Of a stretch of DNA of 21,240 nt, positions 2,203 through 21,159 are shown piece by piece (positions within the stretch are counted from its first letter, which is position 1; every line of letters starts with the position of its first letter). The notes below the pieces were generated by a model. The model had not been told where the DNA came from, ran no database searches, and worked only from the letters and a program-made list of their open reading frames with translations. Source of the DNA: a virus. The stretch lies in the IMG/VR virus record IMGVR_UViG_3300027418_000054, positions 1 through 21,240 of that record, one strand, 5' to 3'. A program made the translations under genes and the position numbers.

Positions 2203-2517
2203 ATGGCAAAGTCAGTAGACAAATTAGCAAAACCACTAGGAGACAGAGTCCTATTGAGTGAATTAGAGGCGGAGGCTTCAAAAACTGCCGGTGGTATCAT
2301 TATCCCAGATAGTGCAAAATCGGAAGATGTAAAAAGAGCAAAAGTAGAAGCAGTAGGTGATGGAATTTATACACAATCAGGAGTAGCAATTCCAATGAGT
2401 GTAAAAGTGGGTGATGAAGTAATCCTTCCACCATATCATCAAGGAGTAGAAATCAAAGTAGGTGGTAACAAATATATTTTACTTAGAGAATCAGAATTAT
2501 TAATGGTCATTAGATAA
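2203..2517 (+). CDS. GroES-like cochaperonin (T4 gp31 functional analogue)
   Basis: Cochaperonin that would cap the host GroEL, probably to help fold the phage capsid protein as gp31 does in T4. The 104 aa product carries recognisable GroES sequence: KPLGDRVLLSELEAE at the N terminus, the mobile loop ending in GGIIIPDS (the hydrophobic tripeptide contacts GroEL), the VGDEVILPPYHQGVEIKVGG roof and strand region, and YILLRESELLMVI at the end. The open frame extends upstream to 2140, but that extension overlaps the nuclease gene and gives non-GroES residues; the ATG at 2203 matches the family start and follows an A-rich leader. T4 gp31 is hardly similar to GroES in sequence, whereas this protein clearly is, which suggests capture from a bacterial host. 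No GroEL is present in the window. The stop overlaps the next start by one base (TAATG). Confidence 0.93.
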   Translation: MAKSVDKLAKPLGDRVLLSELEAEASKTAGGIIIPDSAKSEDVKRAKVEAVGDGIYTQSGVAIPMSVKVGDEVILPPYHQGVEIKVGGNKYILLRESELLMVIR

Positions 2518-3329
2518 TGAAACCAATTACAGAACCAAATATAGATTTATCCAAAATTGAGATTAAAGATATACCTGCAAAACTTGCAAATAAACTAATA
2601 TGCGATAATCATTATAGTGGAACCGTTGCAAAGGGTGTTCAATTTCATTTGGGAATATATTATGATAATACATTACATGGTGTTGCACAATTTGGTTATG
2701 GTATAATGCCGAAAAAAACATGCAAATGGGTAATTGATACATTATCAACCGAATATTTAGAATTAAATAGATTGTGGATATCGGATGAATTGGGAATGAA
2801 TAGTGAAAGTAAATCAATATCTTTATCTTTAAAATATATAAAACAAAGAAAACCAGAATTAAAATGGATTATAAGTTTTGCAGATGGGATGATGGGTAAA
2901 GTTGGAACTATTTATCAAGCTACAAATTTTGTATATACCGGATTTAGAAAAGATGGTGGTATATGGATGACAAGAGAGGGTGAAAGATTGCATTCAGTTT
3001 CTCTTTGGCATAGGCATGGTACTATTCAAAGAAGTGTTTTAGAAGGAATATATGGTACACCTTTGTATAAAGTTTATGGTGGCCAATATCGATATTTTTA
3101 TTTTTATGATAAAAAATTAATTAAAAAATTAAATGTACCTATATTACCATATCCAAAAGTGGACACTATTATAAATGATTTAGAAGTTAAAACGCAATAT
3201 GGTATAAACGATGGTGGTACAAATTATACAGACTTTAAAAAAGTATTAGAACACTCATTGAGTGATGGTACAAATTTTTATAAAAAACAAACAACTAAGC
3301 AAGAAGAAACGCTTAGTAAATTTATTTAA
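2517..3329 (+). CDS. Mom-like GNAT-fold DNA modification protein, copy 1
   Basis: Resembles the phage Mu Mom family, GNAT-fold enzymes that convert adenine in DNA to a bulky N6 derivative and block restriction. Seen in the 270 aa protein: N31-H32-Y33-S34 near the N terminus, a strand and turn FHLGIYYD...HGVAQFGYG, ELNRLWISDE with R85, and the family signature SFAD (D123) followed ten residues later by Y133 in GTIYQATNFVYTG. The His-Tyr and Asp/Tyr residues correspond, as I recall the Mu Mom work, to its iron-site residues H48, Y49, D139 and Y149. This copy differs from the other two in having GMMGKVG where they have a His before the Gly, and Phe for Trp in QATNF. The C-terminal half has the shared YRYFYFYDKK...ILPYPK block plus a low-complexity tail. 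The gene is visibly AT-richer than its neighbours (two 60-base stretches I counted were about 20-27% G+C) and may be a recent insertion between groES and the helicase block. The target base is inferred. Confidence 0.72.
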   Translation: MKPITEPNIDLSKIEIKDIPAKLANKLICDNHYSGTVAKGVQFHLGIYYDNTLHGVAQFGYGIMPKKTCKWVIDTLSTEYLELNRLWISDELGMNSESKSISLSLKYIKQRKPELKWIISFADGMMGKVGTIYQATNFVYTGFRKDGGIWMTREGERLHSVSLWHRHGTIQRSVLEGIYGTPLYKVYGGQYRYFYFYDKKLIKKLNVPILPYPKVDTIINDLEVKTQYGINDGGTNYTDFKKVLEHSLSDGTNFYKKQTTKQEETLSKFI

Positions 3330-3358
3330 CAAAAAAACAAACATGGAGGAACAATCCT

Positions 3359-3571
3359 ATGAAATGTCTTAAAAGTAGCAAAACAGGAAACATTATTAGA
3401 GTAAGTGATAGAGAAGCTTACAACGCAACGAGTGAATGGAAATTTATTCCTAAATCAGAGTGGAAAGCAGAAAGAAGACCTGCTAAAAAAGTAGTAGAAG
3501 AAGTTATTGTAGAAATACAAGAACAAACAATCGCAGAAAAACAATTAAGTAAAAAGAAAAAAGATAAGTAA
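3359..3571 (+). CDS. small basic phage protein of unknown function
   Basis: A 70 aa protein I cannot assign to a function. The N-terminal half (KCLKSSKTGNIIRVSDREA, then WKFIPKSEWK) looks like a compact folded unit seen in short proteins of other T4-type phages; the second half is charged and ends in KKKKDK, consistent with nucleic-acid or acidic-partner binding. Unlike most genes here it has a Shine-Dalgarno-like GGAGGA at 3345-3350, 8 nt before the ATG. Its stop overlaps the helicase start by one base, so it is probably translationally coupled to the helicase and could be a replisome accessory, but this is positional inference only. Confidence 0.7.
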   Translation: MKCLKSSKTGNIIRVSDREAYNATSEWKFIPKSEWKAERRPAKKVVEEVIVEIQEQTIAEKQLSKKKKDK

Positions 3572-4929
3572 TGCAAGAAGTAGATACACTAGTCAAATAT
3601 GGCCAGAGTTATCAATCTAAAGTTGTAGCTGCACTTATCACCGATGTTAAATTTTTAGAACAAGTTGGTGAAATTACTAAACCTGCATTTTTTGAATCTC
3701 AAGCAAACCAATGGATTATAGGTGAAGTCCAACATTACTTTGATGAGTATAGAACAATTCCGACAATGGAAGTGTTTAAGATTAAAGTTGGTGCAATAGA
3801 GGATAAGGGATTGAAATTAACTGTAGTAGAACAATTGAAGAATGTCTACTTACAAGTTGGTGCAGAGGATATGCCTTATGTAAAAAAGGAGTATCTAACA
3901 TTTTGTAAAAACCAAAAAGTTAAAGAAGCTCTATTCAAATCAGTAGACTTACTTAAAAACGGACAATACGAACAAATTATAGATACAATGATGAAGGCAT
4001 CCAAAGTGGGTGTTGAATCTGATTTAGGTTTGGATTTTATTGAAGATTTTGAAAGTATATTAGAGAATGTCAAAAGAGATTCTTGTCCTACGGGTTGGTC
4101 AGTAATTGATGAACTTATGGATGGTGGTTTAGGTCCAGGTGAATTGGGTGTAGTAATGGCTCCATCAGGTATCGGTAAAAGTTGGTTCTTATCTAAGATA
4201 GCATGTTCTGCTTTGGAAAAGGGTATTGATGTATTACATTATACTTTGGAATTATCAGAAAGTTATGTAGGTCAAAGATACATCACAATCCTAACAGGTA
4301 TTCCAACAACCGACCAAAAAGAAAGAAAAGATGAGATTATCAGAAAGGTAAAGCAAGTTCCAGGTAGAGTTCGTATTAAGTATTATCCACCACAATTTGC
4401 ATCTGCTAAAACAATAGCAGCTCACATTGAAAAGATAAAACAAACCGGATTCAAACCAAAACTTATCATTATTGACTACGCAGATTTATTAAAGAGTGGA
4501 AATGGTAACAGGGATGGTCTTTATGCTGAATTAGGTGGGATATATGAGGAGTTAAGAGGTTTGAGTGGTGAAACACTTATCCCGATTTGGACAGCAACAC
4601 AAACGAATAGGGCAGCAATAGACCACGAAGTTATTGGGGCAGATTCGGTAGGTGATTCCTATAAGAAAGTTCAAACTGCAGATTTCATTATGTCAGTTAG
4701 TAGAAAAACAAAGGATAAGTTATCGAACACAGGTCGTATTCACATTGTCAAAAATAGATTCGGTCCCGATGGTTTAACATTTCCTGCAAAAATTGACACC
4801 TTTACAGGTACAATGGATGTATTTGCAGCAACATCGGTAGATGGTATGGCATCAACTAGAGATAGTAAAAGTGGTGAAGGATTAGAGAAAAAACTCCTAC
4901 ATAAGAAGTATGTGGAGAATATGGGATAA
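3571..4929 (+). CDS. replicative DnaB-type helicase (T4 gp41-like)
   Basis: Hexameric 5'-3' helicase that would unwind DNA at the replication fork. The 452 aa protein has an N-terminal helical domain (about residues 1-150) and a RecA-like motor domain. Motor motifs seen: Walker A APSGIGKS at 197-204, the catalytic Glu in YTLELSE (E227), Walker B PKLIIIDYAD ending at D302/D305, and the glutamine motif in WTATQTNR. HIVKNRFGPDG near the end fits the basic late motif of the family. Spacing and size match T4 gp41 better than bacterial DnaB. It starts in a one-base overlap (TAATG) with the preceding small gene. A separate primase (gp61 type) is not in the window, and no fused primase domain is visible. 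Confidence 0.93.
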   Translation: MQEVDTLVKYGQSYQSKVVAALITDVKFLEQVGEITKPAFFESQANQWIIGEVQHYFDEYRTIPTMEVFKIKVGAIEDKGLKLTVVEQLKNVYLQVGAEDMPYVKKEYLTFCKNQKVKEALFKSVDLLKNGQYEQIIDTMMKASKVGVESDLGLDFIEDFESILENVKRDSCPTGWSVIDELMDGGLGPGELGVVMAPSGIGKSWFLSKIACSALEKGIDVLHYTLELSESYVGQRYITILTGIPTTDQKERKDEIIRKVKQVPGRVRIKYYPPQFASAKTIAAHIEKIKQTGFKPKLIIIDYADLLKSGNGNRDGLYAELGGIYEELRGLSGETLIPIWTATQTNRAAIDHEVIGADSVGDSYKKVQTADFIMSVSRKTKDKLSNTGRIHIVKNRFGPDGLTFPAKIDTFTGTMDVFAATSVDGMASTRDSKSGEGLEKKLLHKKYVENMG

Positions 4930-5091
4930 GTATAAAAAAATTAAAAAAAGTGTGAATAAATATTTTCGAAAAAACCTAAAATTAACTAAAGAAAATGGAG
5001 TATAACAGTAGTCTAGTCCATATATATCTTTACATTTCCCACTTTTTAGGGAAAAATATTTACTAACTAAAATTAAAAATTTACAAACAAA
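4930..5091. other. intergenic gap, possible leader of the RNR gene
   Basis: At 162 bases this is the longest non-coding stretch here. It is extremely AT-rich. It holds a short inverted repeat, TTTCCC (5035-5040) and GGGAAA (5049-5054) with an 8-base loop, and a 10-base direct repeat CTAAAATTAA at 4976-4985 and 5067-5076. The inverted repeat is not followed by a T run on either side, so I do not call a terminator. No match to the TTGGTAA-N16-TATATTA promoter motif found elsewhere is present. I see no tRNA, no B12-riboswitch-like conserved box and no credible ORF. It plausibly contains a promoter of another class for the reductase gene. Confidence 0.4.
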
Positions 5092-6948
5092 ATGGACATT
5101 TCAAACAAAATCCTTTCAGAAATTACGGTTTATATGAAGTACGCAAAGTACAGACCCGAATTACAAAGGAGAGAGACGTGGGAGGAATTGGTTACAAGAA
5201 ATATGGAAATGCATATTAAAAAGTATCCACAATTAGAACAAGAGATTAGAGATAACTACAAATTCGTATATGATAAAAAGTGTTTACCATCAATGCGTTC
5301 AATGCAGTTCGCAGGTAAACCGATTGAAATGTCACCAAATAGAATTTACAATTGTGCATTTGCACCAATAGATGATTGGAGAGTATTTTCTGAAATTATG
5401 TTCTTACTATTAGGTGGAACAGGTGTTGGTTATTCAGTTCAAAAACATCACGTAGATGCGTTGCCTGAAATTAGAAAACCAAACGCAGACAAAACTCGTA
5501 GATTTCTTATTGGAGATTCTATTGAAGGATGGGCAGATTCAATTTCGGTATTAGTTAAAGCATATTTCTTTGGTGGAAGTAAACCTCAATTTGACTTTAG
5601 AGATATTAGAGCAAAGGGAGCAAGATTGATTACATCAGGTGGTAAAGCACCAGGACCTCAACCACTAAAAGAATGTCTTATTAAATTAGAAGGTATATTA
5701 GATGCAAAAAAAGATGGTGATAAATTATCTCCATTGGAAGTACATGATATGGTTTGTCATATTGCAGACGCAGTATTGGCAGGTGGTATTAGAAGAGCTG
5801 CATTGATTTCTTTGTTCTCTGCAAATGACGAACAAATGATTAGTTGTAAGAGTGGTGCTTGGTGGGAAACAAATCCACAAAGAGGTCGTTCAAACAATTC
5901 AGCAGTCCTAATGAGACATAAGATTACAAAAGAATATTTTTTAGAACTTTGGAAAAGAATTGAAGCAAGTGGAGCAGGTGAGCCTGGTATCTACTTATCA
6001 AACGACAAAGATTGGGGAACTAACCCATGCTGTGAGATTGCATTAAGACCTTTCCAATTCTGTAATTTATGTGAGGTGAATGTGAGTGATGTAGTAGACC
6101 AATACGATTTGAATGCAAGAGTTAAAGCAGCATCATTCATTGGAACATTGCAAGCAGGTTATACTGATTTTCATTACCTTCGTCCAATCTGGCAAAGAAC
6201 AACCGAAAAGGACGCACTTATTGGTGTATCTATGACAGGTATCGGAAGTGGAGCAGTTTTGAAAATGGATATGAAAGAAGCAGCAAAAGTTGTAAAGGTA
6301 GAAAACAAAAGATTAGCAGAAGTAATGGGTATCAATCCATCTGCAAGAACTACAACAGTTAAGCCTGCAGGAACAACATCATTAACATTAGGAACATCAT
6401 CAGGTATTCACGCTTGGCATAATGATTACTATATTCGTAGAGTAAGAGTAGGTAAGAACGAAGCAATTTATTCTCACTTATTAGTAAATCATCCGGAATT
6501 AGTAGAAGATGAATATTTTAGACCACACGATACTGCAGTTATTGGTATTCCACAAAAAGCACCTGAAACTGCAATATTTAGAACTGAGTCTCCAATTCAA
6601 TTATTAGAGAGAGTTAAGAAAGTACATAGTGAATGGATTAAACCAGGACATAGAACAGGAAATAACTCACACAATGTATCTGCAACAATTTCAATTAGAG
6701 AACATGAGTGGAAAGCGGTTGGTGAATGGATGTGGGATAATAAAGAATATTACAACGGACTTTCAGTATTACCTTACGATGGTGGAACTTACATTCAAGC
6801 ACCATTTGAAGATTGCACGAAAGAAAGATACGAAGAATTAATGAAAACACTTACGGAAGTAGACTTAAGCAAAGTTATTGAAATCGAAGATAATACGGAT
6901 TTATCAGGTGAGGTAGCTTGTGCAGGAGGTGCGTGTGAAGTTAAATAA
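5092..6948 (+). CDS. adenosylcobalamin-dependent (class II) ribonucleoside-triphosphate reductase
   Basis: Makes deoxyribonucleotides for phage DNA synthesis through a B12-generated thiyl radical, needing no oxygen or separate radical subunit. The 618 aa sequence shows the full catalytic set of the monomeric RTPR type: C88 in YNCAF, the active-site NPCCE (C313, E315; the usual NPCGE has Gly where C314 stands), C324 in FCNLCEVN as disulfide partner of C88, and a C-terminal shuttle pair C610/C615 in CAGGAC. The five-residue spacing of that pair equals the C731/C736 pair of the Lactobacillus enzyme. The 10-stranded barrel segment around LLLGGTGVGYSVQ and the phosphate loop region PAGTTSLTLGTSSGIH are also clear. 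It is shorter than the 739 aa Lactobacillus enzyme. A thioredoxin, the natural reductant, lies just downstream. The ATG follows an A-rich leader (ACAAACAAA). Confidence 0.93.
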   Translation: MDISNKILSEITVYMKYAKYRPELQRRETWEELVTRNMEMHIKKYPQLEQEIRDNYKFVYDKKCLPSMRSMQFAGKPIEMSPNRIYNCAFAPIDDWRVFSEIMFLLLGGTGVGYSVQKHHVDALPEIRKPNADKTRRFLIGDSIEGWADSISVLVKAYFFGGSKPQFDFRDIRAKGARLITSGGKAPGPQPLKECLIKLEGILDAKKDGDKLSPLEVHDMVCHIADAVLAGGIRRAALISLFSANDEQMISCKSGAWWETNPQRGRSNNSAVLMRHKITKEYFLELWKRIEASGAGEPGIYLSNDKDWGTNPCCEIALRPFQFCNLCEVNVSDVVDQYDLNARVKAASFIGTLQAGYTDFHYLRPIWQRTTEKDALIGVSMTGIGSGAVLKMDMKEAAKVVKVENKRLAEVMGINPSARTTTVKPAGTTSLTLGTSSGIHAWHNDYYIRRVRVGKNEAIYSHLLVNHPELVEDEYFRPHDTAVIGIPQKAPETAIFRTESPIQLLERVKKVHSEWIKPGHRTGNNSHNVSATISIREHEWKAVGEWMWDNKEYYNGLSVLPYDGGTYIQAPFEDCTKERYEELMKTLTEVDLSKVIEIEDNTDLSGEVACAGGACEVK

Positions 6949-7117
6949 AGATGATAAAGAATTATATTATTTGGAAAATGGTAAAGTGGTGTTCACTACT
7001 GAGTATCACCTTAAACGAGGTGATTGCTGTGGGAGTGGGTGCCGCCATTGTCCATATATTCCAGTAGGTATAAAAGGAAATAAAAATACAAAACAAAAAC
7101 AAAATGGTAACAGTTAA
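6935..7117 (+). CDS. DUF5522-like small Cys-rich protein
   Basis: A 60 aa protein with a KRGDCCGSGCRHCPY block (four Cys plus His), which I recognise as the DUF5522 signature, a small family frequent in Bacteroidota; its function is unknown to me, and metal binding is the obvious guess from the Cys/His pattern. The preceding YYLENGKVVFTTEYHL also fits the family. I chose the GTG at 6935 because it gives MKLNKDDKELYYLENG and lies just after a strong AGGAGGT (6924-6930); the frame is open from 6920, but those codons add nothing family-like. The Shine-Dalgarno and start lie within the last codons of the reductase gene (14-base overlap), and the end overlaps the thioredoxin start by 14 bases. This tight coupling suggests a role linked to reductase or thioredoxin, which is inference. 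Confidence 0.75.
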   Translation: MKLNKDDKELYYLENGKVVFTTEYHLKRGDCCGSGCRHCPYIPVGIKGNKNTKQKQNGNS

Positions 7118-7367
7118 AAAATTCTCAGCAGTATGGTGTGGCCCTTGTAGAGCATTAACCCCAGTAATGAATGAAATCAAAGGTAATTTTTCAAATGTAA
7201 AGTTTGAAGAATACGATATTGATGAGTATAGTGATATAACCGAAGAATATGGAGTTCGTTCGGTTCCAACAGTTATAATCGTAAAAGATGGTATTGAATT
7301 ACAAAGATTTACAGGACTTTCATCTAAAATGGCATATGTCAACGCAATCAATGAGGCAGTAAAGTAA
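7104..7367 (+). CDS. thioredoxin
   Basis: Small dithiol-disulfide oxidoreductase, 87 aa, shorter than the usual 105-110 because of a trimmed N terminus. The active site WCGPC has C12 and C15, the cis-proline lies in VRSVPTVII, and KFEEYDIDEY supplies the central strand and acidic turn. Placed directly after the class II reductase and the Cys-rich protein, it is the likely electron donor that re-reduces the C-terminal Cys pair of the reductase, taking electrons from a host thioredoxin reductase. The start ATG follows AAACAAAAACAAA, the A-rich leader typical here. Glutaredoxin is excluded by the WCGPC motif and overall pattern. Confidence 0.93.
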   Translation: MVTVKKFSAVWCGPCRALTPVMNEIKGNFSNVKFEEYDIDEYSDITEEYGVRSVPTVIIVKDGIELQRFTGLSSKMAYVNAINEAVK

Positions 7368-7369
7368 AT

Positions 7370-7400
7370 TTGGTAAAGTGGGAAAAATAGGTTATATTAG
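7370..7400 (+). promoter_or_regulatory. promoter PA, TTGGTAA-N16-TATATTAG
   Basis: TTGGTAA (7370-7376), 16-base spacer, TATATTAG (7393-7400), starting three bases after the thioredoxin stop. It matches three other sites in the window in both boxes and with the same spacer length, and resembles the Bacteroidota -33 TTTG / -7 TAnnTTTG promoter. It would drive the HTH and tandem Mom-like genes. The ATG at 7405 lies only four bases past the -7 box, so the transcript would be leaderless or nearly so. Confidence 0.65.
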
Positions 7401-7404
7401 ATAC

Positions 7405-7605
7405 ATGTTAAGAGGTGAAGCACATCCAATGCATAAACTGACGGAAGTACAGGTATTGCAAATTAGGGAACTATACAAAATAGGTCATAGAAATATTAAT
7501 GTAATAGCTAGGAACTATAAAGTATCACCTGCAAACATTAAAAAAATAGTTACAAACGAAACGTGGAAACACATGGTTAAATGGCCATATGAAAGTACAA
7601 GATAA
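7405..7605 (+). CDS. small helix-turn-helix DNA-binding protein
   Basis: A 66 aa protein made almost wholly of one helix-turn-helix: HPMHKLTEVQVLQIRELYK, then NVIARNYKVSPANIKKIVTNETWKHM. This matches the HTH module commonly attached to HNH homing endonucleases (GExHPxxKLTxxQVxxIR...IAxxYxVSxxxIxxIxxxxTW), but no HNH nuclease residues are present, so it is either a freestanding DNA-binding protein or the remnant of an endonuclease gene. The frame is open from a GTG at 7378, but that codon lies inside the promoter; the ATG at 7405 fits the promoter position, and an ATG at 7429 behind AGAGGTGAAG is a second option. It overlaps the next gene by 17 bases and heads the cassette with two Mom-like genes, so it may regulate them or help target them (inference). 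Confidence 0.7.
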   Translation: MLRGEAHPMHKLTEVQVLQIRELYKIGHRNINVIARNYKVSPANIKKIVTNETWKHMVKWPYESTR

Positions 7606-8356
7606 GTTATATTGTGATATTTCCAAATTTAGTGTAAGGTTAATAGAAAAGTCAGTTGCAAAGAATATAATAGTAAAACATCATTATTCAAAACAATGGA
7701 CAAAAGTTAGTTACGCATTAGGTTTGTTCTACGAAAACGATACCGAACATAAATTCTTTGGTGGAGTAAATCAGGAACTAATTGGTGTCATCTGTTATGG
7801 TGACCCAATTGGTAGACATTGTGGAGCATCTATAAGTGAGACATTAGATAGAACGGAAGTAATGGAGTTGGTAAGACTTTTTGTATTTGACGGATATGGT
7901 TGTAACATTGAAAGTTGGTTTGTCGGAAAGTCTTTTGAATGGTTGAAAGAAAACGCAAAACAAATAAGAGCATTGATATCATACTCCGACCCTGTACAAG
8001 GACATAAAGGACAAATATATCAGGCAACAAATTGGTTATATCAAGGAACAAGTATTAGACCTAACGACACATGGTCTTTTCGTTTTGAAGAAGGTGGTAA
8101 ATGGATACATGGTAGAACTATGGCACCCTATTGGGGAACAACCTCACCTTTCAAATTGCAAGAACTTATTGATAAACCATTTTGGGTAAAAAGAGAACCA
8201 AAGAAGCATAGGTATATCTACATTTTGGGCAAGGACAAAAAAGATAAAAAGGAATTGTTGAAAAGAATAAAACATCCTTTATATCCATATCCAAAAACAT
8301 TAGAGGAATATACCGAAGAAATATTAAAATTAGAACCAATTGAAAGAGTTAAATAA
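7589..8356 (+). CDS. Mom-like GNAT-fold DNA modification protein, copy 2
   Basis: A 255 aa member of the Mom-like family, with H31-H32-Y33-S34 at the N terminus, a GNAT-like LIGVICYGDPIG strand-turn, ELVRLFVFDGYGCNIES with R96, and the signature SYSDPVQGHKGQIYQATNWLYQG, in which D134 and Y144 are ten residues apart as in Mu Mom (D139/Y149, from memory). A C-terminal lobe has KWIHGRT, KKHRYIYILGKDKKDKKELLKR and YPYPK, shared with the next gene. It probably modifies adenine in phage DNA to resist restriction; the donor and exact product cannot be read from sequence. The ATG lies within the end of the HTH gene. It forms a tandem pair with the next gene, at roughly 40% identity by eye. Confidence 0.78.
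   Translation: MKVQDKLYCDISKFSVRLIEKSVAKNIIVKHHYSKQWTKVSYALGLFYENDTEHKFFGGVNQELIGVICYGDPIGRHCGASISETLDRTEVMELVRLFVFDGYGCNIESWFVGKSFEWLKENAKQIRALISYSDPVQGHKGQIYQATNWLYQGTSIRPNDTWSFRFEEGGKWIHGRTMAPYWGTTSPFKLQELIDKPFWVKREPKKHRYIYILGKDKKDKKELLKRIKHPLYPYPKTLEEYTEEILKLEPIERVK
7602..7619 (+). repeat. 18-bp direct repeat, copy 1, at the HTH/Mom-2 junction
   Basis: ATAAGTTATATTGTGATA is repeated without mismatch at 8353-8370, 751 bases downstream. Both copies contain the upstream gene's TAA stop and codons 5-10 of the following Mom-like gene, so the whole 17-base gene overlap was copied. It looks like a footprint of the tandem duplication that made copies 2 and 3. Confidence 0.8.
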
Positions 8357-9143
8357 GTTATATTGTGATACAAGTAGAGTATCGGTTAGAGAAATCAGTT
8401 CGGCAATTGCAAAAGAAATTATAGTTAAGAAACACTATACTCACGCATGGACTGCATGTAGATACGCATTGGGAATATTTTATAGAACAGATGAGTCAAA
8501 CGCAATTGGTGATAGTGACAAACTTATAGGATGTTTAGTTTATGGATTTCCAGTAGGTGCAAGAGCATCAACATCCGTTTGTGAAGGACTTACAAAAGAT
8601 AACATTTTAGAATTGACAAGATTGTATTGTGATGATGGGTATGGTTCAAATATTGAGTCATTTGCATTAGGACAATCGTTTAAGTGGTTTAGGGAGAATG
8701 ATAAAGCAATCAAAGTTTTAATATCATATGCAGATAACGGACAAGAGCATTTGGGTGGAATTTATCAGGCAACGAATTGGATTTATCAAGGAATGAATAC
8801 TGATATCGCATTGATGCCAAATTACGGAATATCGTTATCAAATGACCCTTACAAATGGATACATAGTAGAACTGTGTTTTCAATGTGGGGTAGTGGTAAT
8901 TTAGAAGCATTGAGAGCAGCAATTGGAAAGGATGGTTATAAAGAGTTTTGGAGAAGGGAAGAACCACCAAAACATAGATACATACAAATCATAGGTGAGG
9001 ACAAAAAGGAAAAAAAAGACCTAAAAAAGAGATTAAAGCACGAAATTAGACCTTATCCTAAAAATACACAGGAATTTAACAAAGCAATTCAACATCACAC
9101 AACGATAGAACCTGAAACTGACATTAAGACAAAGTTTTGGTAA
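8340..9143 (+). CDS. Mom-like GNAT-fold DNA modification protein, copy 3 (TTG start)
   Basis: A 267 aa paralog of the preceding gene. Seen: KKHYTHAW with H32 and Y33 at exactly the positions of copies 1 and 2, a LIGCLVYGFPVG strand-turn, ELTRLYCDDGYGSNIES with R94, and LISYADNGQEHLGGIYQATNWIYQG with D132 and Y142 ten residues apart. It shares KWIHSRT, PKHRYIQIIGEDKKEKKDLKKR and RPYPK with copy 2, but has an insertion after YQGMNTD and a different C-terminal tail. The start is TTG at 8340: codons KELNKLYCD align with KVQDKLYCD of copy 2, and no ATG lies nearby in frame. It overlaps copy 2 by 17 bases. The TTG start may lower expression relative to copy 2. The function is likely DNA base modification, perhaps with a different sequence preference; substrate and partner are unknown. 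Confidence 0.78.
   Translation: MKELNKLYCDTSRVSVREISSAIAKEIIVKKHYTHAWTACRYALGIFYRTDESNAIGDSDKLIGCLVYGFPVGARASTSVCEGLTKDNILELTRLYCDDGYGSNIESFALGQSFKWFRENDKAIKVLISYADNGQEHLGGIYQATNWIYQGMNTDIALMPNYGISLSNDPYKWIHSRTVFSMWGSGNLEALRAAIGKDGYKEFWRREEPPKHRYIQIIGEDKKEKKDLKKRLKHEIRPYPKNTQEFNKAIQHHTTIEPETDIKTKFW
8353..8370 (+). repeat. 18-bp direct repeat, copy 2, at the Mom-2/Mom-3 junction
   Basis: Identical to 7602-7619. It includes the stop codon of Mom-like copy 2 and the early codons of copy 3. Confidence 0.8.
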
Positions 9144-9171: not shown

Positions 9172-10374
9172 ATGAAATTTTGGGACACAGGCAACGAAGC
9201 TAAAAAAACAGACGCATTTGATTTTGAAAGAAGTAAACGAGAGTTAATTGAAAATTTAGATTACTTATTTACAATGTCAGTACAAGAACAAACCCTTTAT
9301 AAGAAGTGGTTAGAGTGGAATGAAGATTTGCATGCAAGTATGAAATTACTGCCGGCACTTCACCAACAATACGATAAGATTTGGGAACCGAAAGACCTAA
9401 TGGACAAAGAGGGAACAATCAAAGAAATCCAAGAGATGCAACCATATGTTGAATTGGTTGGAGAAGGTGAAGAAGCAACCCGTTGGACATATGTTAGAAA
9501 GTTAATCAGTTCAATGGAGTTCACACCAAACCCAGGTCGTAATGTTAAAGCATATGTAAAAGATAGAGTAAGTGGTAAGATATTGGGTGTTATTAGTTTG
9601 GGTAGTGATATTACCAGTTTGGGTGTTAGGGATGAATTTATTGGTTGGACTAAGGAGGACAAATTCAATGGTGGTAAATTAAATTGTACTGCAATCGGCA
9701 CATCAATCATCGCAACTCAACCATTAGGATATAATTTCTTAGGTGGTAAGTTGGTGTCCGCAATGACAACTTCACCTACATTTAGACAAGAGTGGAAAGA
9801 TAAATACAAAAATACATTAGTAGCAGTTGGAACAACATCATTATATGGTATTCATTCACAATACAATGGTATTCCACATTTCAAAACATTAGGTGAAAGT
9901 AAAGGTAAAATCAGTATCAAACCCGATGACAAATATTATGATGTATGGCACCATTGGTTACAAGAAAATAGAGCCGATTGGTATAGAGACCAAATTGAAT
10001 TAGCATCAGCAGATAAGTCCGGCCCAGTTAGTGGTGTAAAACAAAAGATATTAGGACAAATATTCAAAGAGTTAGGAATTAAAAACGATACATACCATCA
10101 CGGATTTAAGAGAGGTGTATATTTTGCACCAATGTATGAGAATGGTAATGACTATCTATGTTCTAAAATTGATGAGGACAAATTGATAATGAAACCAAAG
10201 TTTGTACAAGGTGATGAATATACAATCAAATGGTGGAAAGAAAAAGCAATAAAGAGATATTCTAAATTACACGAAGAAGGTAGATTGAAACCAGAAAAGT
10301 TATTCTATGCAGACGCAATCGGTTTAACTTGGGAGGAAATGAAAGACAAATTTTTAGCAGACGTGGGTAGATAA
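9172..10374 (+). CDS. DUF4338/DruA-like protein of T4-type phages
   Basis: A 400 aa protein resembling DUF4338, the domain of the defence protein DruA that also occurs widely in phages; its activity is not known to me. Seen: a core strand GKILGVISLGSD (135-146), RDEFIGW at 153-159, a helix GYNFLGGKLVSAM from 186, WKDKYKNTLVAVGTTS, and the closing motif YNGIPHFKTLGESKG at 231-245. This order parallels DruA-type RDxxIGW ... LAS.LL ... YxxxNWxxxGxTxG. The closing motif also recalls the IYQATNWxYxG of the Mom-like genes just upstream, which raises the possibility of a distant shared fold. The N-terminal 120 residues and a Trp-rich C terminus (WHHWLQENRADWY) surround the core. The start at 9172 is the first ATG after promoter PB; a later ATG at 9274 is possible but would cut conserved-looking sequence. 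Confidence 0.6.
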   Translation: MKFWDTGNEAKKTDAFDFERSKRELIENLDYLFTMSVQEQTLYKKWLEWNEDLHASMKLLPALHQQYDKIWEPKDLMDKEGTIKEIQEMQPYVELVGEGEEATRWTYVRKLISSMEFTPNPGRNVKAYVKDRVSGKILGVISLGSDITSLGVRDEFIGWTKEDKFNGGKLNCTAIGTSIIATQPLGYNFLGGKLVSAMTTSPTFRQEWKDKYKNTLVAVGTTSLYGIHSQYNGIPHFKTLGESKGKISIKPDDKYYDVWHHWLQENRADWYRDQIELASADKSGPVSGVKQKILGQIFKELGIKNDTYHHGFKRGVYFAPMYENGNDYLCSKIDEDKLIMKPKFVQGDEYTIKWWKEKAIKRYSKLHEEGRLKPEKLFYADAIGLTWEEMKDKFLADVGR

Positions 10375-17015: not shown

Positions 17016-18392
17016 ATGGCAAAAAAGAAAATTCTGTTATTGGCGGATGATTTACGAATGGCAAGTGGTATTGCAAATGTTTCTAAGCAATTAGTTTTAG
17101 GAACAGTTGATAAATATGATTGGGTACAATTAGGTGCAGCAATCAAACATCCTGATGCAGGTAAAATATTTGATTTAAATGATAGTGTTAGAGAACAAAC
17201 AGGCGTAAAAGATGCAAGTGTTAAAATATATCCATTTGATGGTTATGGTAACGCTGATATAATTCGTCAATTACTAATGGTTGAAAAACCTGATGCAATC
17301 CTACACTTTACTGACCCAAGATATTGGATTTGGTTATATGAGATGGAGCACGAAGTTCGTCAATCAGTTCCTTTATTCTTTTATCATATTTGGGATGATT
17401 TACCAGACCCAAAATACAATAGAGATTACTACGAAAGTTGTGATTGGATTGGGTGTATTTCAAAACAAACTTATGGTATTACTAAAAGAGTTTGGAGTTG
17501 GGATAAAGAAAAGCATTGGACACCACCTGCAGATTGGCAAGTAAGTTATGTGCCACATGGTATCAATTCGGAATTATACAAACCAGTAGAAGTTCCAAAA
17601 GATTTTAAAGAAAGTGTATTTGGTAATAAGGAATATGAATTTGTTTTATATTGGAACAATAGAAATATTCGTAGAAAACAACCCGTTGATGTAATTTTGG
17701 CATTTGATAAGTTTGTACAACAATTACCAAAAGAAAAACAAGATAAGGTATGTTTATTAATGCATACTGCTCCTGTGGAAGAACATGGAACGGATTTACC
17801 AAGAACAATTGCAGAATGTTGTTCACCTGAAACAAATGTAGTATTTGCACCAAATAGATATTCCGAAGAACAATTAAACTATCTTTATAATATGGGAGAT
17901 GTAACAATCAATGTGGCATCAAACGAAGGATTTGGATTGGCAACCGCAGAGTCAGTAATGGCGGGTACACCAATCATAGTTAATGTTACAGGTGGAATGC
18001 AAGACCAATGTGGATTTGAAATAGATGGTAAATATATAACTGCAGAAGATTATGTTAAAATTGGTTCTTTAAATAATAAGAAACAATATGAGAACACAAA
18101 ACATGGTGATTGGGTTAAACCAATTTGGCCAGTTCGTTCAACAACAGGTTCAGTTCCTACTCCATATATTTTTGACGATAGAGTTGATTTTGAAGATATT
18201 ACTAAATTGATTATGGATTGGTATAATACTCCAAAAGAAGATAGAGATAAAGCAGCTTTAAAAGGTAGAGAATGGATGTTGGGTGATGGTATATTGAGTA
18301 GAGAAGCAATGTGTAAAACATTAACGGATGGTATGGAAGGTGCATTTGAAAATTGGAAACCAAAAGAAAAATTTAAATTAATAGAGTTATAG
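17016..18392 (+). CDS. glycosyltransferase, GT-B fold (GT4-like)
   Basis: A 458 aa sugar transferase. The N-terminal domain begins KKKILLLADDLRMASGIANV, with the Gly-containing loop after strand 1. The C-terminal nucleotide-sugar domain has YVPHGINSELYKP at 178-190, the strand EFVLYWNNRNIRRKQP, and the EX7E donor-binding motif in ASNEGFGLATAESVMAGTP (E304 and E312). No signal peptide or membrane segment is visible, so it acts in the cytoplasm, on DNA, a phage protein or a lipid-linked acceptor. The sequence does not reveal which. Its partner gene starts two bases after its stop. The start follows TTTTAAAAGTT, matching the AAAAGTTATGGCAAA context of the cochaperonin gene. No hydroxymethylcytosine synthesis gene is in the window to support a DNA target. 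Confidence 0.87.
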   Translation: MAKKKILLLADDLRMASGIANVSKQLVLGTVDKYDWVQLGAAIKHPDAGKIFDLNDSVREQTGVKDASVKIYPFDGYGNADIIRQLLMVEKPDAILHFTDPRYWIWLYEMEHEVRQSVPLFFYHIWDDLPDPKYNRDYYESCDWIGCISKQTYGITKRVWSWDKEKHWTPPADWQVSYVPHGINSELYKPVEVPKDFKESVFGNKEYEFVLYWNNRNIRRKQPVDVILAFDKFVQQLPKEKQDKVCLLMHTAPVEEHGTDLPRTIAECCSPETNVVFAPNRYSEEQLNYLYNMGDVTINVASNEGFGLATAESVMAGTPIIVNVTGGMQDQCGFEIDGKYITAEDYVKIGSLNNKKQYENTKHGDWVKPIWPVRSTTGSVPTPYIFDDRVDFEDITKLIMDWYNTPKEDRDKAALKGREWMLGDGILSREAMCKTLTDGMEGAFENWKPKEKFKLIEL

Positions 18393-18393
18393 T

Positions 18394-19662
18394 ATGAAAC
18401 CAACATTAGTATTTCAGGCACCAATAGCAACAAGAAGTGGGTATGGTGACCACGCGAGAGATTTATTACATTCTCTTTATAAATTAGATAAGTTTGAAAT
18501 TAAAGTAATTAGTACACGATGGGGCAATACTCCAATGGACTCACTTAATTATGACAATCCGTTTCATAAGTGGATAGTTGATAGTATTATTCCAAAAGTA
18601 GAACAAAAGCCCGACATTTATATTCAGGTTACTGTACCAAATGAATTTCAACCAATAGGACATTATAACATTGGAATTACCGCAGCAATTGAAACAACAC
18701 ATTGTCCATTAGATTGGGTACATGGTTGTAATAGAATGGATTTAATTATAGTACCATCTGAACATTCAAAAAAGAGTTTAGTGGATAGTATATACAATGA
18801 AGTTGATAAAAACACCAATCAATTAATAGCTCAACATAGAATTCAAAAACCTGTTGAAATTATTTTTGAAGGGTTTGATGAAATGGATTTTGGAACCGAT
18901 GAAGTGGCCCATGTAACTGAATTAGATTCAATCAAAGAAGATTTTGCATTCTTATTTGTAGGACATTGGTTAAGAGGTGATTTAGGTGAAGATAGAAAGA
19001 ATGTGGGGATGATGATTAAGACATTCGCAATGGCATTCAAAGATGAAAAGAAAAAACCAGCATTGGTACTTAAAACTAGTTCGGCAGGATTTAGTGTATT
19101 GGATAGAGAAAATACTATTAAAAAAATAAAAGAAGTTTTGGGTAAAGAATACAAAAAAGTTCCAGTTTATCTTTTGCATGGTGATTTAACCCCATCTCAA
19201 ATGAATGGATTATACGAACATCCAAAAGTAAAAGCAATGTTAAACTTTACAAAAGGTGAAGGATTCGGTAGACCCCTACTAGAATTCAGTTTAACAGGTA
19301 AGCCTGTGATTGTATCTAATTGGAGTGGCCATATTGATTTCTTAAAACAAGGTGCAGTATTATTAGAAGGTGAATTGAAGCCCGTACACGAATCAGCAGC
19401 AGACCAATTCTTATTAAAAGAAGCACAATGGTTCAATGTAAATATTTCAAAGGCATTGATTACAATTAAAGATGTTTATAAAAATTATGATAAATATAAA
19501 GTAAATTCTTTTCAATTGGGTAAACAAAATAAACAAAATTTTAGTTTAGAAAAAATGACTAAATTTTTCGATGTTATTTTAAATCAATATGGTATTTATA
19601 CTAAAATACAACCAAAGTTTCAACAACTTCAGTTACCTAAATTGAAAATGTTAAATAAATAA
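18394..19662 (+). CDS. glycosyltransferase, GT-B fold (GT4-like), second copy
   Basis: A 422 aa transferase. The first domain starts LVFQAPIATRSGYGDHARDLL, an acceptor-side Gly-rich loop; the second contains FLFVGHWLRGDLGEDRKN, VYLLHGDLTPSQMNGLY, and the EX7E motif in FTKGEGFGRPLLEFSLTGKP (E289 and E297), followed by VIVSNWSGHIDFL. It has the same fold as the preceding gene but low similarity outside the EX7E region, so it is probably a different specificity and not a recent duplicate. The two genes are nearly contiguous and likely act in sequence on one acceptor. The stop overlaps the next gene by one base. Confidence 0.87.
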   Translation: MKPTLVFQAPIATRSGYGDHARDLLHSLYKLDKFEIKVISTRWGNTPMDSLNYDNPFHKWIVDSIIPKVEQKPDIYIQVTVPNEFQPIGHYNIGITAAIETTHCPLDWVHGCNRMDLIIVPSEHSKKSLVDSIYNEVDKNTNQLIAQHRIQKPVEIIFEGFDEMDFGTDEVAHVTELDSIKEDFAFLFVGHWLRGDLGEDRKNVGMMIKTFAMAFKDEKKKPALVLKTSSAGFSVLDRENTIKKIKEVLGKEYKKVPVYLLHGDLTPSQMNGLYEHPKVKAMLNFTKGEGFGRPLLEFSLTGKPVIVSNWSGHIDFLKQGAVLLEGELKPVHESAADQFLLKEAQWFNVNISKALITIKDVYKNYDKYKVNSFQLGKQNKQNFSLEKMTKFFDVILNQYGIYTKIQPKFQQLQLPKLKMLNK

Positions 19663-20222
19663 TGGCAAATCAAACTAACTATACCAAAGTATATAAGAGA
19701 TACTCCAGCAATCCAAAATTAATTGGTGACCCGATGGGTAAAATGAAAAGAGGTCAATTTTATCAAATTTTGGAATATAAATATGTTGAAGAAGAAGATG
19801 ATTCAAAAACTTGGTCAGTCAGTACCGCACCAATAGTTTATACATTATTTGTATCAGATAGTCAGGATGTAGTTCATTGTATCAAATTATCCAGTATTAA
19901 TCCATTAACAGTAAAACAATTGTTTAAAAAATTAGTAGATGAAAAGGATTTTGAAATGGACCCAGGTAAAAATGCACGCACATTCTATAATACAAAAATG
20001 AAAGGAATGAAATTCTTTTCAAATAATTTTTATAGAACCTACAAATTATCTGGTATACAAAGATGTATTGAATTGGATATGGATACTACTAAATTGATAC
20101 CAAAAGCTATGAACCAACAAGGTAGAGCTAGTATGGGTTATAAAACATATGGAAGAAGGGGGAAAATTCAAAATGTGGATATTGAAATTAAAGATAATAA
20201 ATTAAAAAATTATAGTAAATAG
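19662..20222 (+). CDS. conserved-looking phage protein of unknown function
   Basis: A 186 aa protein with no family I can name. It is mixed alpha/beta and basic towards the C terminus. Noticeable stretches are GKMKRGQFYQILEYKYVEEEDD, APIVYTLFVSDSQDVVHCIK, and GKNARTFYNTKMKGM leading to FYRTYKLSGIQRCIELD. It has no signal peptide, membrane segment or catalytic signature. The two-strand start followed by a core with Lys and Tyr clusters could suit a virion or DNA-associated protein. It begins in a one-base overlap with the second glycosyltransferase (TAATG), so it is co-translated with the glycosylation genes and might be their acceptor or an unrelated structural protein. Confidence 0.75.
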   Translation: MANQTNYTKVYKRYSSNPKLIGDPMGKMKRGQFYQILEYKYVEEEDDSKTWSVSTAPIVYTLFVSDSQDVVHCIKLSSINPLTVKQLFKKLVDEKDFEMDPGKNARTFYNTKMKGMKFFSNNFYRTYKLSGIQRCIELDMDTTKLIPKAMNQQGRASMGYKTYGRRGKIQNVDIEIKDNKLKNYSK

Positions 20223-20224
20223 TT

Positions 20225-20536
20225 ATGACATCAAAAGAATTCGTCCTTTGGTTAAAAGGATTTACGGAAGGAGTACATGAATTTAATATTACTCCAAAAC
20301 AATGGGACACACTAAAAGAAAAATTAGCAGAAGTTAACGATGGAACTCCAATCGGTATAGGTGGATGGGGAACACCAAATGGAACAGGAGCTCCTGTATT
20401 TACAACAACACCTGGTCAAAGTTCTATTACAATTGCTAATCCACCATTTGGGTTCGGAGTAACATCAACCGCATACGGATACCCAACCGGTTCAGCGTGG
20501 AGTTATACAAATAAATCAGACGAAAAAATATTTTAA
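20225..20536 (+). CDS. small phage protein with KEFxxWLKGF domain and Gly-rich tail
   Basis: A 103 aa protein in two parts. Residues 1-39 (TSKEFVLWLKGFTEGVHEFNITPKQWDTLKEKLAEV) form a helical unit that I recognise as a recurrent short phage domain of unknown function, with the pattern KEFxxWLxGFxE...PxxxQWxxLxxKL. The remainder is low-complexity, rich in Gly, Thr, Pro and aromatic residues (GIGGWGTPNGTG, PPFGFGVTSTAYGYPTGS), and probably disordered. It starts two bases after the previous stop behind AGTT and overlaps the following GT-A gene by one base. Confidence 0.75.
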   Translation: MTSKEFVLWLKGFTEGVHEFNITPKQWDTLKEKLAEVNDGTPIGIGGWGTPNGTGAPVFTTTPGQSSITIANPPFGFGVTSTAYGYPTGSAWSYTNKSDEKIF

Positions 20537-21159
20537 TGAAATTAAGTTACGCAATAACGGCTTGTAATGAAGTCGAAGAAACTATTAGATTAGTAAGTCA
20601 ATTATTAAATTATAAAACTGAAAATTCAGAAATTGTAGTCCTTTTAGACACACCAAAAGCACCAATTGAATTATTGGAATATTTAGAATTACAAGCTAAT
20701 GCAGATTACATAACATTGATTGAGTCTGAATTTGATAATCAATTTGCAGAATGGAAAAATCTTTTAAATTTACATTGTAAAGGTGAATGGATATTTCAAT
20801 TGGATGCCGATGAATATTTAGAACCCGATTTGATTTATAATTTAGAAGATATTTTAAATAATAATATCGATAAAGATTTGATATTAGTTCCAAGAATTAA
20901 TACCATTGAAGGGTTGTCCGAAACACATATTAAAAAATGGGGATGGAATGTAAATGAAAAAGGTTGGGTAAATTTCCCAGATGTTCAAACTCGTATTTAC
21001 AAAAATAAAGATACAATTGGATGGTCTGGAAAAGTACATGAAAGAATTACAGGATTTGAAAATTATACAAATTTTCCATTTGAAGAAGTGTATTGTATAA
21101 AACACCCAAAAACAATAGAAAGACAAGAAAAACAAAACAATTATTACGATACTCTATAA
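20536..21159 (+). CDS. glycosyltransferase, GT-A fold (GT2-like)
   Basis: A 207 aa transferase of the family 2 type. It opens with KLSYAITACNEVEETIRLV, the standard first strand and nucleotide-binding loop, carries the metal-binding DxD as D90-A-D92 in WIFQLDADEYLEPDLI, and has a later acceptor-side WSGKVHERI. It is short and lacks any C-terminal membrane helices, so it is soluble. Three glycosyltransferases of two folds within 4.2 kb imply a multi-step glycan. The stop overlaps the next start by one base. Confidence 0.88.
   Translation: MKLSYAITACNEVEETIRLVSQLLNYKTENSEIVVLLDTPKAPIELLEYLELQANADYITLIESEFDNQFAEWKNLLNLHCKGEWIFQLDADEYLEPDLIYNLEDILNNNIDKDLILVPRINTIEGLSETHIKKWGWNVNEKGWVNFPDVQTRIYKNKDTIGWSGKVHERITGFENYTNFPFEEVYCIKHPKTIERQEKQNNYYDTL

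Follow-up and report, generated by a model that had tools for sequence, protein, structure and literature searches.

A putative DNA-modification cassette of two Mom-family lineages, a helix-turn-helix gene and a DruA-family gene in a T4-type phage

To our knowledge, most of what is known of the DNA-modifying protein Mom comes from a single gene of a single phage. The Mom of phage Mu places a methylcarbamoyl group on the N6 of adenine in a defined sequence context, and the Mu protein found as a match in this work carries the database name 'Methylcarbamoylase mom'. In Mu, the small regulatory gene com overlaps the start of mom (positions 378-566 and 487-1212 of L149, respectively). Mu Mom confers restriction resistance (PMC6483171), and PMC7824862 describes Mom-REase fusions in jumbo phages and the presence of the Mom family in large phages. 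PMC12707154 describes temperate Bacillus phages in which one multispecific methyltransferase has several target-recognition parts, and DruA-like proteins, of the family that includes DruA/DUF4338 (PF14236) of type I Druantia, are reported from Synechococcus phages (PMC12774648). Psychrobacter phage vB_PmaS_Y8A, a named phage, also has a pair of Mom-family genes; they are far apart in a 40-kb genome that is not of the T4 type, and the passages of its publication covered here (PMC10434257) name one.

The DNA analysed here (the window, 21,240 nt of IMG/VR record IMGVR_UViG_3300027418_000054) contains three Mom-family genes, all on the forward strand, among genes for a UvsX-like protein, a family B DNA polymerase, the clamp loader A subunit, a clamp loader ATPase, a DnaB-like helicase and a 5'-3' exonuclease, together with a weak gp45 call made from position. 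The best named relative of the polymerase is that of Microcystis phage Mel-JY01 (48.6%), and no pointer to the host was found. These genes bear out the assignment to a T4-type phage made in an earlier sequence-only reading, with the label referring to replication and recombination genes alone, as the 21-kb record stops short of T4-type capsid and contractile tail genes. The gene at 2517-3329 is called mom1, and those at 7589-8356 and 8340-9143 are called momA (mom2) and momB (mom3). The latter two lie in a cassette with the order HTH75-momA-momB-DruA-like, flanked by thioredoxin and DNA polymerase genes.

All three proteins matched the Pfam Mom family (PF25680), with E values of 2.6e-59, 1e-43 and 2.2e-43 for mom1, mom2 and mom3 and scores of 200.7, 149.8 and 148.7 bits relative to a curated cut-off of 27.1 bits, and all three matched PHROG 1384 ('Mom-like DNA modification protein'), which confirms the family proposed for them from the sequence. 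Comparison with the Mu Mom structure (PDB 8bv8) gave E 5.1e-31 for P0001, a result that belongs to mom1 and was obtained from its sequence, and E 5e-7 for P0002. The AlphaFold model of mom2 (pLDDT 89.3), the one Mom of the window compared as a model, was nearest to 8bv8 (Z 20.2, rmsd 3.5, 187 residues aligned; Foldseek E 1.6e-12), and the next GNAT entry had a Z of 12.1. Therefore, the predicted GNAT fold was borne out for mom2. Unlike the nuclease-fused Mom-REase proteins of jumbo phages, the Moms of the window are separate proteins with no nuclease domain recognised by Pfam.

The residue pattern and open reading frames that had drawn attention to these genes were also confirmed. His32-Tyr33 is common to all three proteins, the arginine of ELxRL is invariant among them, and the S[FY][AS]D motif is followed exactly ten residues later by a tyrosine (D123/Y133, D134/Y144 and D132/Y142 in mom1, mom2 and mom3). 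The Mu equivalents in the annotated 241-aa open reading frame are H58/Y59, R111, D149 and Y159; the Mu numbers cited previously (H48/Y49, D139 and Y149) we take to be these positions minus ten. The serine replaced by mutation in the crystallised, inactive Mu Mom (8bv8; Mu S124) is also kept in the Moms of the window. In an alignment of 189 Mom rows, the equivalents of Mu H58, Y59, E108 and Y159 were present in 189 rows, S124 in 187, R111 in 186 and D149 in 184. The search patterns by which many of the loci were gathered contained HY and IYQATN, so that the conservation of these two is in part an effect of selection. In family, fold and the H-Y, E, R, S, D and Y residues, the proteins resemble Mu Mom, whereas Mu has one Mom and the window has three, which fall into two lineages; the phage here is of the T4 type, and a DruA-like gene is adjacent.

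More than one Mom per phage, as had been proposed, is found beyond the window: at least two Mom matches were present in 22 of 26 close records and in 29 of 50 wider records, and copy number differs among contigs. The phages of the window type exceed the single Mom of Mu in both the copies and the kinds of such enzymes. It was found, however, that the three genes do not form one set as had been supposed, but have two origins. Mom2 and mom3 are 49% identical to each other, in comparison to 32 and 30% for mom1 versus mom2 and mom3. The mom1 gene (270 aa), which lies between GroES and a 70-aa open reading frame, groups in the tree with near relatives of 63-70% identity from eight IMG/VR loci, and it is missing from its site in all eight close relatives that span that place. 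It is an accessory gene on a branch separate from momA and momB, which are the conserved pair.

The momA (255 aa) and momB (267 aa, TTG start) genes overlap by 17 nt, as they do in 34 of 54 tandem loci, and the TTG start of momB is found in 37 of 51. In the tree, momA and momB each occupy one side of a branch, with SH-aLRT values of 100 and 97; they are two old lineages retained together behind HTH75. The median dN/dS was 0.045 for momA and 0.092 for momB, with replication genes at 0.049-0.077; both genes are under strong purifying selection. It is improbable, then, that these are redundant copies, alike in target and product, that are retained for a dosage effect or as the outcome of a recent duplication: the shared family and residues and the varying copy number would fit such an explanation, but lineages that are old, distinct and strongly constrained by purifying selection are not recent duplicates.

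Among 59 informative HTH75 loci, momB was present in 58 and momA in 47, and momA was never found alone; in 11 of the 59, momB was present without momA, two of these having a short DruA gene in the momA slot. No other gene of the cassette is as constant as momB. The adjoining, often overlapping genes and the presence of momB at all 47 momA loci would suit an obligate heteromer with MomA and MomB as its subunits; the sequence-only reading had raised the idea of a heteromer for the Moms of this phage. An obligate enzyme of two or three parts is not supported, given the 11 loci with momB but no momA; furthermore, the full residue set is kept in both lineages, and in a further group of contigs relatives of momB are solitary, with a gp45-like gene on one side and a gp44-like gene on the other. 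We therefore regard the heteromer as distinctly unlikely.

The gene HTH75 (7378-7605, forward strand) encodes a 75-aa helix-turn-helix protein, overlaps momA by 17 nt and has a weak match to Pfam HTH_7 and PHROG endonuclease/HTH matches. The protein is similar to homing endonucleases at their DNA-binding end, with E 2.2e-4 for the homing endonuclease model of PADLOC. The suggestion of an HTH partner gene held up, with HTH75 directly upstream of the Mom pair in 51 of 54 tandem loci, and when loci were recruited by HTH75 alone, a Mom or DruA gene was downstream in 77 of 80. Its position, overlapping the start of a mom gene, is that of com in Mu, but the likeness ends with the overlap, as HTH75 is a helix-turn-helix protein and not a zinc finger Com, and no Com model in Pfam, PHROGs or PADLOC matched it. 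We infer that HTH75 probably regulates expression or directs the enzymes to DNA.

The reading that we consider probable is that the cassette encodes GNAT-type modifiers of DNA bases, forming an exchangeable set whose members probably differ in specificity, and that this set protects phage DNA from restriction. Each Mom would probably be active as an acyl-type transferase, attaching a bulky group to bases of replicating phage DNA, such that host restriction enzymes would cease to cut it. Judged from their separate lineages and co-retention, the two enzymes of the pair most likely have different target sequences or add different groups, with momB as the constant enzyme and momA, the DruA-like genes and mom1 as possible add-ons that broaden protection. 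By analogy only, this would resemble the way in which a Bacillus phage guards against several restriction systems at once (PMC12707154), but with separate GNAT-type genes in place of a single multi-part enzyme.

An unlikely alternative has the paralogues acting stepwise on one base, one adding a group that another extends or alters. An enzyme dependent on the product of another would be expected to behave as momA does, never occurring without momB, and several GNAT-type genes can lie within one array; the sequences, however, give no sign of differing substrates, with the same residues kept by all. GNAT proteins have many substrates, and at least one of these proteins could act on host DNA, RNA or protein without protecting phage DNA. 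In favour of another target, PMC10853773 places DUF4338 domains in bacterial conflict systems and proposes a protein target there, and PMC12707154 notes that artificial Mom expression is toxic; but the genes are sited among replication genes and are nearer to Mu Mom than to other GNATs, and we give this explanation little credence relative to base modification.

Between momB, which it follows immediately, and the DNA polymerase gene lies a DruA-family (Druantia/DUF4338) gene (9172-10374, forward strand, 400 aa), which scored 68.1 bits against Pfam DruA (PF14236; cut-off 27; E 9.3e-19) and E 1.1e-19 against PADLOC DruA. This gene and the DruA-Mom link had been overlooked in the sequence-only reading. 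A DruA-family gene is present in all 21 close relatives searched, and it evolves faster (dN/dS 0.18). The neighbours scanned around it were replication, thioredoxin and Mom genes, among which none was recognised as a further Druantia gene, and here, unlike in type I Druantia, the DruA-family gene accompanies Moms in a phage. The locus is not classed as a Druantia system. The AlphaFold model of the DruA-like protein was poor (pLDDT 66.4), and Foldseek gave no match at E <=0.001; the weak matches, mostly to GNATs, were not counted as evidence.

Related contigs carry a short DruA gene where momA would otherwise lie, and a DruA-DruA-Mom-Mom-Mom array is present in one contig. These short relatives (200-243 aa) score as DruA in both Pfam and PADLOC. 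In profile comparisons, a 5-row set of short DruA proteins matched a diverse Mom set with a probability of 95.7, but only 44.5 with momA/B/C alone, and a 17-row set matched 78 Moms with 97.7; the maxima of column-shuffled controls were 18.0 of 60 (A4), 24.6 of 60 (A3) and 18.2 of 40 (17-row comparison). The long T4-type DruA of the window gave no significant match to Mom when compared directly (probability 1.5% with deeper sets). These profiles indicate that short DruA and Mom are homologous and that the link between Mom and DruA passes solely through the short DruA genes.

The portions of the open-licence literature covered contain no account of a T4-type phage with several Moms and none of a DruA-Mom relation; the reviews PMC10286901 and PMC12926258, which mention both Druantia and Mom, are outside that scope. 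A conserved cassette that unites two Mom lineages of old origin with an HTH gene of its own and a relative of DruA suggests that base modification by GNAT-type enzymes is a main, multi-enzyme means of anti-restriction in abundant uncultured T4-type phages. More tentatively, the slots behind the HTH gene may be filled interchangeably by members of the Mom and DruA families, both then GNATs and related to each other, each protein with its own motif or group, as combinatorial hypermodification in T4-type phages, with the DruA of Druantia being a Mom-related nucleobase modifier. Within the literature searched, the Mom-DruA relationship is the first concrete biochemical guess for the role of DruA in Druantia; if true, phage counter-defence and bacterial defence would share one enzyme ancestor.

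When sequence composition at Mu-like SAS contexts was tested for signs of protection, the ratios were mixed (ACGT 1.44, TCGA 0.86), and the sparing of palindromes in such contexts was dropped as support for protection. The absence of GATC from the whole window (1-21240) is real, with none observed versus 53.7 (sd 7.0) expected, or 58.1 by a Markov estimate, and no phage Dam gene that might explain it was found in 12 records. The proposal that Mom and GATC absence form a layered system is not supported, and a tight coupling between the two was rejected: the Mel-JY01 record, which has no Mom match, likewise lacks GATC over 34.5 kb. The GATC-free stretch is a trait separate from the enzyme cassette.

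The three genes proposed as Mom-like in the sequence-only reading, at 2517-3329 (mom1), 7589-8356 (momA) and 8340-9143 (momB), are present as described, each scoring more than 120 bits over the Pfam Mom family cut-off of 27.1 bits and matching PHROG 1384, 'Mom-like DNA modification protein'. The Mu Mom structure (PDB entry 8bv8) was matched by mom1 with an E value of 5.1e-31 and by momA with 5e-7. The residues singled out in that reading, and their spacing, are exact in all three genes and correspond to H58, Y59, R111, D149 and Y159 of the annotated 241-aa Mu ORF; also conserved is the serine altered in the 'inactive mutant S124A' of the 8bv8 title. In an alignment of 189 Mom rows, the equivalents of Mu H58, Y59, E108, G156 and Y159 were each found in all 189, those of S124 in 187, R111 in 186 and D149 in 184, the conservation of H58, Y59 and Y159 being partly a matter of selection because two motifs were part of the patterns by which many loci were recruited. 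An AlphaFold model of momA, made with 31 relatives (pLDDT 89.3, pTM 0.82), had Mu Mom as its best solved structure (Foldseek E 1.6e-12; VIA-align Z 20.2, rmsd 3.5 over 187 residues), followed by a GNAT entry (Z 12.1). Lack of a GNAT fold had been named as an argument against the proposal; these matches point to such a fold in momA, closest to that of Mu Mom, and remove the objection for this protein.

The window, a viral fragment of 21,240 bases, carries replication genes (UvsX-like, 5'-3' exonuclease, DnaB-like helicase, family B polymerase and clamp-loader genes) together with GroES, ribonucleotide reductase, thioredoxin and dUTPase genes, and the named polymerase closest to its own comes from Microcystis phage Mel-JY01 (48.6%). 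Among 50,697 named phage records, none had a match of at least 60% identity to mom1, momA, momB or HTH75, the 75-aa helix-turn-helix gene (7378-7605) upstream of momA; lower-identity matches numbered 201, 319, 278 and 20, respectively, and the cassette DNA had no blastn match in named phage records.

It was found that HTH75 lies upstream in 51 of 54 loci with a momA-momB tandem, that the two mom genes overlap by exactly 17 nt in 34 of the 54, and that TTG is the start codon of momB in 37 of 51. When loci were recruited by HTH75 only (the best 80 of 468 matches), a Mom gene started within 60 nt of HTH75 in 57, a DruA gene occupied that position in 7, and a Mom lay within 1.3 kb in a further 13; two loci end too early, and one had neither Mom nor DruA. 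In the 59 of these 80 loci with at least 2.6 kb downstream of HTH75, momB was present in 58 and momA in 47, with momB lacking momA in 11 and momA lacking momB in none, although these cassette counts are not independent, many contigs being close relatives. The heteromeric enzyme suggested earlier is therefore unlikely in an obligate form, because momB occurs without momA; stepwise chemistry by the paralogues is possible, because momA was never found alone. The HTH75 protein is similar to the DNA-binding end found in homing endonucleases. The start of momA lies within the HTH75 gene, just as that of mom lies within com in Mu, where Com activates mom translation (PMC6483171); however, a Com-like role would be only a guess, because HTH75 is not a homologue of Com.

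A Pfam search gave at least two Moms in 22 of 26 close records, the other four being single-Mom short contigs of 8-17 kb, and three Moms in 4 of the 26. The third Mom here is mom1, flanked by GroES and a 70-aa ORF; that of the related contigs L005, L014 and L019 is a different, 199-aa protein between helicase and ribonucleotide reductase. The nearest kin of mom1 (63-70%) are at other places; three of them, in the more distantly related T4-type contigs L141-L143, adjoin GroES. A maximum-likelihood tree was built quickly from 78 Mom representatives, with SH-aLRT values as its only support; in it, mom1 and its kin grouped together (98) on the side holding Mu Mom, by a weak split (77). The momA (9 representatives) and momB (8) genes, although labelled by position only, were each set apart from all other Moms by a single branch (support 100 and 97), and a third type, whose gene is flanked by gp45- and gp44-like ones, was closest to momB. 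The Moms of the window thus have two origins and do not form a single set: mom1 has its own tree group, and its place is Mom-free in eight close relatives spanning the GroES-helicase interval (L005, L006, L014, L015, L016, L019, L022 and L028). In L068, L085, L106 and similar T4-type contigs, one Mom is flanked by the gp45- and gp44-like genes, and a second, shorter Mom follows a gp62-like gene.

Over 17 close contigs, median dN/dS was 0.045 for momA and 0.092 for momB, 0.185 for HTH75, 0.180 for DruA, and 0.049-0.077 for gp41, gp43, gp44, gp45, UvsX, exonuclease and ribonucleotide reductase. The low values of momA and momB indicate that both are maintained as functional proteins. Relative to L019, DNA identity was 87% for momB, above the replication genes (80-83%), and 76% for momA, below them, which suggests that the two genes have been exchanged separately.

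The gene next after momB, at 9172-10374, belongs to the DruA family (Pfam E 9.3e-19; PADLOC E 1.1e-19), and is present in all 21 close relatives searched and in 9 of 32 other records. Synechococcus phages carry related genes among those for the clamp loader, and Pelagibacter phages have them too, one such gene being annotated as 'methylcarbamoylase mom'; DruA-like proteins are known from six Synechococcus phages, as the Phold paper states (PMC12774648). Short DruA genes (about 200-243 aa) were found within the cassette of related contigs, between HTH75 and momA in L006 and L015, and in the momA slot, with HTH75 before and a Mom gene after, near 2986-3741 in L246, L247 and L248. In L273 (3001-6241), five consecutive, mostly overlapping genes of GNAT type in the order DruA-DruA-Mom-Mom-Mom lie directly 3' of a gp41-like helicase gene, the last Mom being cut by the contig end (L273 and L248 genes were assigned with Pfam). 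A profile of 17 representatives of 85 short DruA proteins matched that of 78 Moms with probability 97.7 (E 2.4e-12, score 86.6), whereas none of 40 column-shuffled controls scored above 18.2, and the alignment takes in the Mom D-x9-Y-x-A-x-N-W/F stretch. Long and short DruA matched with probability 98.1; long DruA compared directly with Mom gave 1.5, which is not significant. A 202-aa protein (L085:5882-6490) is recognised by the DruA HMM (E 1.4e-44) and also by the Mom HMM (E 1.1e-4). That DUF4338 is a GNAT has already been published (PMC10853773); a specific DUF4338-Mom kinship was not found in the open-licence papers searched.

Family, residues, momA fold, linkage, lineage age, purifying selection and exchange with DruA are established here. 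It is most likely that each Mom would act on bases of the phage DNA and that the paralogues would differ in motif or in added group, momB being the constant member. Regarding the claim of an undescribed system, Psychrobacter phage vB_PmaS_Y8A also has two Moms, and Mom-nuclease fusions in jumbo phages have been described (PMC7824862). What is new, as far as our searches show, is that T4-type phages conserve an HTH75-momA-momB(-DruA) cassette and that Mom and DruA genes replace one another at a single slot.

The absence of GATC that was read as a further anti-restriction layer was borne out (0 versus 53.7 expected), and in 16 close loci 27 sites were counted where 853 were expected, L019 alone holding 23 of them. 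CTAG, GTAC, CATG, ACGT and TCGA are also depleted in the window and related loci, and GGCC and AGCT are not. However, the proposed tie to Mom did not hold, as Mel-JY01 likewise lacks GATC (0 versus 67.8 expected in 34.5 kb) and neither Mom nor DruA was matched anywhere in its record; avoidance and Mom coexist, the former not needing the latter. Mu Mom requires G or C beside the adenine; a Mu-like Mom thus could not protect GATC, which would explain keeping both strategies.

Three glycosyltransferase genes lie at 17016-21159, the first also matching 'GT4-conflict' PF20706 (E 2.6e-9). Some relatives have a PhoH-like gene, absent from the window, that separates the DUF5522 gene from thioredoxin (L005:5991-6713, by PHROG match; L004:1001-1732, by its similar N-terminus). 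In the large related viral records G036, G038 and G048, genes of about 360 aa belong to the thymidylate synthase family (E 1e-91 or better) and may encode either the synthase or a relative that hydroxymethylates bases. Mom genes also occur in L323 and L324, contigs of the bacterial MAG TMED198; in L324, phage replication genes surround two Moms, and it is therefore probably a binned phage contig.
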